DNA from: Parafannyhessea umbonata
GTDB lineage: Bacteria; Actinomycetota; Coriobacteriia; Coriobacteriales; Atopobiaceae
DNA: 64,000 nucleotides
Direction of reading: 5' to 3'
Assembly: GCF_900105025.1 (NCBI RefSeq)
Contig: NZ_LT629759.1
Location: forward strand, 1,054,001 to 1,118,000
Of this stretch, positions 40,279 to 41,260 are shown one piece after another (position 1 is the first letter of the stretch; every line of letters starts with the position of its first letter). A program made the position numbers and the translations under genes. The notes beneath the pieces were generated by a model. It was not told the origin of the DNA. It searched no databases and saw only the letters and a list, made by a program, of their open reading frames with translations.

Positions 40279-40592
40279 GCTAATAACCTTTCGTATGTGG
40301 GGCGGACCCGCCATGGGCTTCGCCCTCAGACATTGCCGTAAAATGTTTTCCGTTGGATCAAGGGAGAAGAGCGTGCGCACCCGGCCGAGGCCCTTGGGTC
40401 AACGCAGCGCGGCGCCTGCCGCAGGACGGCGCGCGGCCGTCCCATCGAAAGGACAGGCGCCTAGATAGTCGTCGTGGTGATGGTGGGAATACCGTTCGCG
40501 ATGGCGCGACTCGCGCGCGTGCGTGGGCAGAACCTGTACTCGTCACTGTTCGAACGCATGACCTGACGACTCCCCCGTGCCGTAACGGCACG
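40279..40592 (-). promoter_or_regulatory. thrS attenuator leader
   Basis: The untranslated region between the upstream terminator and thrS contains, in order on the minus strand, a perfect CGTGCCGT-A-ACGGCACG hairpin (40576-40592), a Thr-rich leader peptide gene (40461-40559), then a compound hairpin whose outer arms GGCGCCTG and CAGGCGCC begin at the leader stop codon and enclose GGACGGC/GCCGTCC. Nearer thrS, CGTTG..CAAGGG can pair with CCCTTG..CAACG and is followed by a short ATTTTA. This is the layout of ribosome-mediated transcription attenuation. The exact terminator and antiterminator pairing is not certain. Confidence 0.65.
40461..40559 (-). CDS. thrS leader peptide, 32 residues, Thr/Ile-rich end
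   Basis: ATG-initiated frame of 32 codons and TAG stop. The last nine residues are IPTITTTTI, using ACC, ACC, ACG, ACG and ACT, so all leading Thr isoacceptors are sampled. GGGGGAG lies ten bases upstream of the ATG. It ends 182 bp before thrS on the same strand, and the stop codon abuts a strong stem-loop. Ribosomes short of charged tRNA-Thr would stall in the Thr run. Comparable to the E. coli thr operon leader in design; no homologue recognised. Confidence 0.7.
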   Translation of the reverse strand: MRSNSDEYRFCPRTRASRAIANGIPTITTTTI

Positions 40593-40759
40593 ACTTGCGT
40601 TTGCCGACGGCACGCGGCCGTTCGCAAACCAATTGCAGACGTGACTACTTTACAACAGCTTCGTGCGATGTGTGGCCGCGACCTCTGTGTCAGCCAAAAG
40701 CCACATGCGTGGGCACAGGGATCGCCCAGAGGTGTCCGCCGCAGTGGCATTGCGGCCAC

Positions 40760-40828: not shown

Positions 40829-41260
40829 CTACTGGATGCGGGTGCGGCAGTACGGGCACACCTTCCAGTCCGCGTTCAGCGGGCGGTGGCACGTGGGGCA
40901 CACGTTCCTCACCTGGGTGTTGCAGATGGGGCACACCACGAAGTCGCGGTCGATGGGCGCACCGCACTTGGGGCAGATGCCATAGTGGCTGAGCTGGTGC
41001 TCGCGAAGCGCGATGTCCAGGTCCTGCTCCTCGCGGTCGACCAGGTAGGAGCTGGGGCGCAGGATCACGTACGCCAGAAGGCCGACGATGGGGATGATCG
41101 ATATGACGGCCCACAGCCACCAGGGCTCCGCGCCGCGGCGCTGGGCGTCGCGGATGACATAGACGATGGAGAGGATGTAGAGCATGACGAGGCACGCAAC
41201 CATGAGGTAGAGCACCATGCGGACTTCGGGCGTAATCAGCTGGTCGAGAAGCTCAGACAT
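40829..41260 (-). CDS. Membrane protein with C-terminal double zinc ribbon
   Basis: 143 residues. Two N-terminal membrane helices (about 15-35 and 48-66), an acidic linker, then four CXXC pairs (CPKC, CPIC, CPTC, CPYC) that form two zinc ribbons facing the cytoplasm. AAAGG precedes the ATG. Similar phospholipase D-N-like plus zinc-ribbon architecture occurs in actinobacterial proteins of unknown role. Single-gene unit with its own terminator. Confidence 0.8.
   Translation of the reverse strand: MSELLDQLITPEVRMVLYLMVACLVMLYILSIVYVIRDAQRRGAEPWWLWAVISIIPIVGLLAYVILRPSSYLVDREEQDLDIALREHQLSHYGICPKCGAPIDRDFVVCPICNTQVRNVCPTCHRPLNADWKVCPYCRTRIQ

Follow-up and report, generated by a model that had tools for sequence, protein, structure and literature searches.

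A Thr-codon leader peptide and a stop-codon-joined hairpin precede thrS in two families of Coriobacteriia and form a probable attenuator

In Parafannyhessea umbonata and many other Coriobacteriia, thrS, the gene for threonyl-tRNA synthetase (ThrRS), is preceded by a short open reading frame that ends in Thr codons and by an RNA hairpin, P1, whose first base is the G of that frame's UAG stop codon. Comparison among relatives indicates that P1 is a conserved RNA and that the short frame is a leader peptide, predicted to be translated. Judging from sequence, it is likely that the region acts as a leader-peptide attenuator of thrS which senses charged tRNA-Thr. The element was described in an earlier note on a 64,000-nucleotide stretch of the P. 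umbonata genome, here called the window.

Direct reading of the window locus (Table 1) bears out that description: the leader frame of 32 codons, translating as MRSNSDEYRFCPRTRASRAIANGIPTITTTTI before its stop, carries five Thr among its last seven codons, starts 10 nt after a GGGGGAG motif and stops 182 bp before the thrS start (40278). The inverted-repeat arms at the stop codon are exact where the note had placed them, with GGCGCCTG/CAGGCGCC at 40411-40418 and 40454-40461, as is the inner helix GGACGGC/GCCGTCC at 40424-40430 and 40436-40442; the basal stem of P1 is 10 bp long (40461-40452 paired with 40420-40411). The second hairpin has the loop CUCG in the window and UUCG in the sister species. 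Farther upstream, 87 nt before the leader ATG and beyond the range of 40279-40592 that the note had covered, the possible promoter element resembles GTGGTANAAC/GTGGTAAACC of relatives; no sigma-70 consensus site was found in the window leader region. The whole 321-nt leader folds no better than its dinucleotide shuffles (z 0.10), so single-sequence folding of the window leader is uninformative and the case rests on comparison and conservation. A gene for a double zinc-ribbon protein lies upstream of thrS on the same strand (window 40829-41260), and in several relatives a similar C-terminal sequence (CPYCRT) ends, by eye, shortly before the thrS leader or thrS.

Table 1 The thrS leader region of P. 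umbonata, in window positions
Feature	Position	Strand	Basis
thrS, threonyl-tRNA synthetase, 589 aa	38509..40278	-	Pfam PF07973, PF00587 and PF03129 matches
Leader ORF (translation predicted), 32 codons + TAG, C-terminal IPTITTTTI	40461..40559	-	Direct reading and comparison
Leader Thr codons	40469-40467, 40472-40470, 40475-40473, 40478-40476, 40484-40482	-	
Shine-Dalgarno-like GGGGGAG of leader ORF	40570..40576	-	Direct reading
Hairpin P1	40411..40461	-	Covariance-model match and covariation in relatives
Second hairpin, directly 3' of P1, where relatives have a terminator	40371..40410	-	Fold and sister-species alignment
Pyrimidine tract TCTTCTCCCTT, degenerate U-tract after second hairpin	40360..40370	-	Direct reading and sister-species alignment
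Possible promoter element, extended -10-like GTTGTAAAGT	40647..40656	-	Matched by eye

The thrS N-terminus is present in 112 of 121 genomes of the window's own family. Upstream DNA was taken for 91 of these 112 genes, the window's included, with the start codon aligned in all 91; at one locus (L053) it extended only 210 nt. Many of the short frames end in RTQTI, TRTPTI, TTVTI, TQTQTM or TTETM followed by TAG, and a stem begins at the G of the TAG. Scored with a model built from these relatives, P1 stands before thrS in 54 of the 91 regions (weakest match E 1.5e-9, next match 0.0025). The element is absent from the other 37, several of which by eye have a promoter-like site close to thrS instead. 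The P1 of the window, whose sequence is itself in model R1, matches it with 58.4 bits (E 1.4e-12) and is the sole strong match in its own genome; two weak matches there (E 0.029 and 0.57), one of them inspected, were not taken as elements.

Covariation in P1 was assessed on 48 distinct sequences aligned without structure. In the 10-bp stem, 98.3% of cells can pair (29-48% in slid controls) and six of its ten pairs have changed on both sides (25 cells; shuffle mean 4.5; none of 500 shuffles as high), while the count of further pair types, one of five measures, is unexceptional (12 versus 10.3 in shuffles; 63 of 500 as high). RNAalifold gives the same stem. The earlier note had proposed looking in relatives for covarying helices, and P1, joined to the stop codon, is one. 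A smaller hairpin between CAGAC in the leader and GUCUG in P1, seen by eye in many species, is lost where P1 changes and was dropped.

P1 matched no catalogued RNA family: at gathering score no Rfam (15) family matched in the window thrS leader or in 40 of the 91 own-family loci, and a lax search of P1 at 7 loci gave no match. These searches included the T-box (RF00230), which agrees with the note's claim that thrS here has none, and the leader of the enterobacterial thr operon, a classical leader-peptide attenuator whose Rfam family is presumably the one named Thr_leader; neither matched in the window or the 40 own-family loci, nor in the 7 loci under lax filters. Elsewhere in the window's genome, two T-box matches below the Rfam cut-off, L214 (G000:C1:800565-800801) and L215 (G000:C1:360251-360501), with E 2.7e-9 and 2.6e-8, precede frames that read by eye as IleRS and PheS/PheT. 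Within a single genome, ileS and pheS thus seem to be under T-boxes and thrS under a leader peptide.

The leader frame was examined at 80 loci (54 own-family, 7 further own-family and 19 from a second family; 77 distinct), which are related rather than independent events and were partly picked with a motif containing the Thr codon. An in-frame ATG with a Shine-Dalgarno match of at least 4 nt is present at 69 of the 80 (2 and 1 in control frames +1 and +2), and any start codon in frame at 77 (17 and 8 in the control frames). Thr occupies codon -2 in 79 leaders and codon -4 in 73, with Thr at neither place in either control frame; at the 80th locus, L016, the stop directly follows the Thr codon and the distance from Thr to P1 is unchanged. 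The last codon varies among Ile, Met, Leu, Thr, Phe, Asn, Lys, Ala and Arg. The Thr run, on whose presence in relatives the earlier note had staked its reading beforehand, is thus kept in a peptide that is otherwise free; its Thr/Ile signal stands for Thr, whose codons are fixed in relatives, and falls for Ile, since the last codon varies among nine residues.

Since the choice of the 54 loci had relied on a motif that includes the Thr codon, we also chose stems blind to their flanks, by pairing and a GGC start only, in 119 thrS regions (91 unselected, 28 obtained via the model), which removes motif selection but not the relatedness of the loci. Among the 83 stems so chosen, a Thr codon lies exactly 5 nt before the stem in 80, and a second Thr codon six bases farther upstream in 73; by eye, the three exceptions are other hairpins.

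Thirty-nine of the 80 peptides have 14 codons and are of the type MQRIFAHIARTQTI, and RTQTI is the C-terminal end of 39. Codon -4 is ACG in 42, ACT in 21, ACC in 7 and ACA in 3. Codon -2 is ACT in 77 of 80 and codon -5 is CGA in 43 of 80, both beyond the need of the peptide alone. The stop is TAG in 78 of 80 leaders, a preference explained by its G opening P1. At 49 of 80 loci, but not at that of the window, a promoter-like GTGGTANAAC or GTGGTAAACC lies upstream of the leader (reverse strand, 0 of 80); 41 of the 49 copies stand 28-37 nt from the leader ATG.

A search of 296 genomes of the class with the model gave 74 matches, never more than one per genome. These are confined to two families, and 73 precede thrS. 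All 19 matches in the second family of the order, which had not been used for the model, lie upstream of thrS. In the window's own family this genome search placed 54 matches before thrS: 44 among the 91 loci, 9 newly fetched and 1 (G043) known by coordinates only. The remaining match (G203) is false: it is weak, lies in an apparently open coding stretch of another gene and has no thrS in its 2-kb stretch. A degenerate 19-mer of the element, searched over the genome_contigs collection, returned 61 stretches, of which 59 match the model and have thrS 112-211 nt downstream, in the same orientation; the other two, from Burkholderia and Microthrix, lack both thrS in the stretch and a match to the model. 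The 59 come from Olsenella, Thermophilibacter, Parafannyhessea, Atopobium, Collinsella, Enorma and related genomes, and on these genera rests our naming of the two element-bearing families as Atopobiaceae and Coriobacteriaceae. A conserved cis-acting RNA without a match in Rfam 15 precedes an essential gene in Collinsella, Olsenella, Atopobium, Enorma and their relatives, which live in the gut and mouth of humans and animals.

Of 20 further thrS regions that we examined, 16 belong to other families of the class, 3 to the second family and 1 (G025) to the own family. A leader ending in T-x-T-I (PTHTI) occurs in G025 alone, with a weak stem of 24.1 bits; Thr-containing frames at two others (L225, L235) were left as chance. 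The model was run directly on 6 of the 20; the remaining 14 come from genomes in which the 296-genome search had given no match. In four of the 16 other-family regions (L223, L227, L229, L231) the start codon set by the script is doubtful and the leader scan perhaps misplaced. The ThrRS itself also differs among these groups. That of the window, which matched no TGS model at E 0.001 in a Pfam search, begins like the ThrRS of leader-bearing relatives. In other families of the class, most matches to thrS do not start until about residue 15, and many of these regions encode a longer N-terminus with LPDGS. A long thrS (LPDGS N-terminus) also stands behind leaders ending in TLTLTQTI in two genomes, and G025 with its PTHTI leader is a third such case. 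Two genomes of family f2 carry the short form of ThrRS, 82 and 85% identical to the window protein, without the leader, possibly by transfer.

The operator of E. coli thrS mimics the anticodon arm of tRNA-Thr and is bound by ThrRS. P1 might act in the same manner, with the short frame as a by-product, and its strongly conserved sequence and single copy per genome, at thrS in 73 of 74, would suit such autoregulation. Its apical loop, however, is variable and has no constant anticodon-like triplet (48 sequences, by eye), and a tRNA mimic leaves the in-frame ATG, the Shine-Dalgarno sequence and the Thr codons unexplained. We regard this explanation as highly improbable.

As an intrinsic terminator between leader and gene we counted any hairpin with 7 or more pairs and -10 kcal/mol or better that runs into TTTT between P1 and thrS. 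Such a terminator is present at 51 of the 80 loci: 35 of 61 own-family loci and 16 of 19 from the second family. Five shuffles of the 80 yield 3-7, and the 37 element-less thrS regions a single one. The attenuation proposed in the earlier note gains support from these 51 loci. The window locus is not among them: its second hairpin and TCTTCTCCCTT do not amount to such a terminator, the pyrimidine tract being broken. The window species and its sister lack the U-tract and keep the hairpin and the pyrimidine tract, and a third member of the genus (L007) has a clear terminator; control in the window species, with its degenerate terminator, may be weaker, Rho-dependent or lost. Eight loci, L009-L011, L013, L015, L017, L025 and L041, all from one genus (g30), have strong Thr runs (TTTTVTI, TTTVTI) and no canonical terminator. 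Longer Thr runs may go with terminator loss, as in the window species.

A fixed Thr position and a terminator before the gene would also be unexpected if the leader served mainly for ribosome loading or reinitiation rather than sensing. Leader ORFs are proposed, in the part of PMC4833913 that was available, to raise the expression of bacterial genes generally, but for the thrS leader we give this role very little credence.

The geometry was measured on another set of 51 loci, all but one shared with the set above. In 50 of the 51, 4-8 nt separate P1 from the start of the terminator (12 nt in one), with a median linker of 6 nt (sd 1.14), whereas the distance from terminator to thrS ATG ranges from 34 to 98 nt (sd 14.08). 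The order of Thr codon, 5 nt, P1, about 6 nt and terminator is therefore constant. At a fixed 6-nt register, 57.5% of terminator positions are paired, versus 54.3% in permutations (maximum 60.8%). L050 and other loci carry a direct repeat, at most 14 nt long (CACATATCGCTCGA in L050, by eye), before the Thr codons and again between P1 and terminator; its mean length is 6.2 nt, against 4.5 with a shuffled leader and 5.9 across species.

The terminator also bears on whether the stalled ribosome might instead alter access to the thrS ribosome-binding site or protect the message, without termination. No canonical terminator is present at 29 of 80 loci, and four of these (L084, L085, L090, L091) have no more than 39-40 nt between the end of P1 and thrS. 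At the window locus, seven nucleotides of the P1 interior are complementary to the thrS Shine-Dalgarno sequence (40446-40452 with 40287-40293). This pairing is not kept across relatives (-8.82 in own species versus -8.90 across species) and was rejected, and terminators are strongly enriched in the remaining loci. We consider such control of translation or RNA stability doubtful, if conceivable.

In attenuation of the classical trp type, part of the leader or the 3' arm of P1 would pair with the terminator when the ribosome stalls, as a 2:3 antiterminator, and so free thrS. Leader, hairpin and terminator do stand in the classical order, and the earlier note had seen further alternative helices before thrS. 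We compared 25 pairs of leader segments in their own species with permuted partners, each over 32 to 79 distinct loci, and predicted the terminator under ribosome masks in 51 loci; neither approach revealed a conserved, mutually exclusive antiterminator helix. Only the pairings of P1 and of the terminator stand out among the 25, both partly circular as the 3' arm or stem had been chosen by pairing. The leader segment that precedes the Thr codons can pair with the 3' arm of the terminator (-14.8 kcal/mol on average and -14.35 after permutation, with 0.049 of permutations equally good, uncorrected for 25 tests), and a leader segment with the 3' arm of P1 (0.0125 as good, likewise uncorrected for 25 tests), but besides P1 and terminator no pair is clearly better in its own species, and the sole candidate pairing would be covered, not freed, by a stalled ribosome. 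The mean probability of the terminator is nearly the same without ribosome (0.82), with ribosomes at the Thr codons (0.84 and 0.87) and at the stop (0.80), and falls below 0.5 in 3 to 7 of 51 loci, depending on the mask. The prediction does shift in single loci (L116 and L064 with the ribosome at codon -4, L132 and L136 with it at the stop). The alternative helices of the note thus found no support, and since no conserved antiterminator helix was found, the element is not filed as a classical trp/his-type attenuator; that it works in this way seems to us rather unlikely.

The fixed short distances, with no antiterminator found, fit instead a steric attenuator of the pyrBI type. In such a scheme, when Thr-tRNA is plentiful, the ribosome would reach the stop codon, open P1 and depart, the terminator would fold and transcription would end. 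When Thr-tRNA is scarce, the ribosome would wait on a Thr codon while P1, at its mRNA entrance, stayed folded; the terminator would fail and thrS would be transcribed. The ribosome begins to unwind mRNA at position +11. With a Thr codon in the A site, P1 would begin about where unwinding starts and so remain intact; once the stop codon occupied the A site, some six P1 pairs would be open. Folded, P1 would shorten the path, leaving about 11 unpaired nucleotides and one helix between the waiting ribosome and the terminator, which would be blocked sterically. This block needs no alternative RNA fold and is our favoured but unproven last step, and we infer that thrS is induced by Thr starvation. 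In its most specific form P1 would be a spacer, not a switch: a hairpin ruler which, intact next to a waiting ribosome, keeps the terminator from folding and, opened or free of ribosomes, lets it work. We put forward this form tentatively, as one possibility. P1 is nearly constant in length (40-49 nt), so fixed geometry alone cannot tell a folded from an unfolded distance.

The available text of earlier work on other terminators gives a scale for these distances. A close upstream ribosome represses an intrinsic terminator, an effect lost beyond about 27-30 nt, and 10-15 nt of free mRNA between the A site and the hairpin are thought necessary for terminator folding (PMC4824070); in vitro, termination at pyrL drops when a ribosome is coupled (PMC10135430).

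The idea of a thrS leader peptide is itself not new. In the accessible text of PMC8079986, Streptomyces lividans TK24 has a thrL upstream of thrS that its authors read as an attenuator. It resembles the present element in being a short ORF with Thr codons before an actinobacterial thrS. As given there, thrL is leaderless, has 18 codons with two adjacent Thr in mid-peptide (MKRVRPFLETTPGFVPAR) and one hairpin without a U-rich tract, and is described for one species. In Coriobacteriia, by contrast, Thr stands two and four codons before the stop, the ORF is led by a Shine-Dalgarno sequence, a covarying hairpin is joined to the stop codon and a terminator is present at 51 of 80 loci; the two are compared by description, not homology. 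A thrS leader peptide in Coriobacteriia was not found among the literature matches listed, in a search that left out most subscription papers. As far as these matches show, the family in Coriobacteriia, the stop-locked conserved hairpin and the apparent absence of an antiterminator are new.

According to the part of Seliverstov et al. that was available (PMC1262725), Actinobacteria have leaders for Trp, Cys and Leu/branched-chain pathways and T-boxes for ileS, no conserved structures were seen for other pathways, and some systems have attenuator parts missing. The T-box leader (RF00230) is a common regulator of synthetase genes. The classical attenuators, such as those of trp, leuS and ilvB described in the same excerpt (PMC1262725), share with the thrS element cognate codons near the end of the ORF, a hairpin, a terminator and a biosynthetic or synthetase gene. 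The thrS element differs from them in that no antiterminator helix was found and in that its hairpin, tied to the stop codon, keeps a constant spacing to the Thr codon.

E. coli pyrBI is alike in the proposed steric block of a terminator by a close ribosome without antiterminator RNA; as far as the available sections tell, the ribosome is placed there by UTP-dependent pausing of RNA polymerase, and the terminator lies inside the leader-peptide frame (PMC10135430, PMC4824070). In the thrS element, codon-specific stalling would place the ribosome, and a folded hairpin would lie between ribosome and terminator. The comparison poses the question whether codon-specific stalling can control a terminator by distance alone, without an antiterminator. 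If the hairpin ruler is true, starvation would be read out in just this way, a new design between the trp and pyrBI types.
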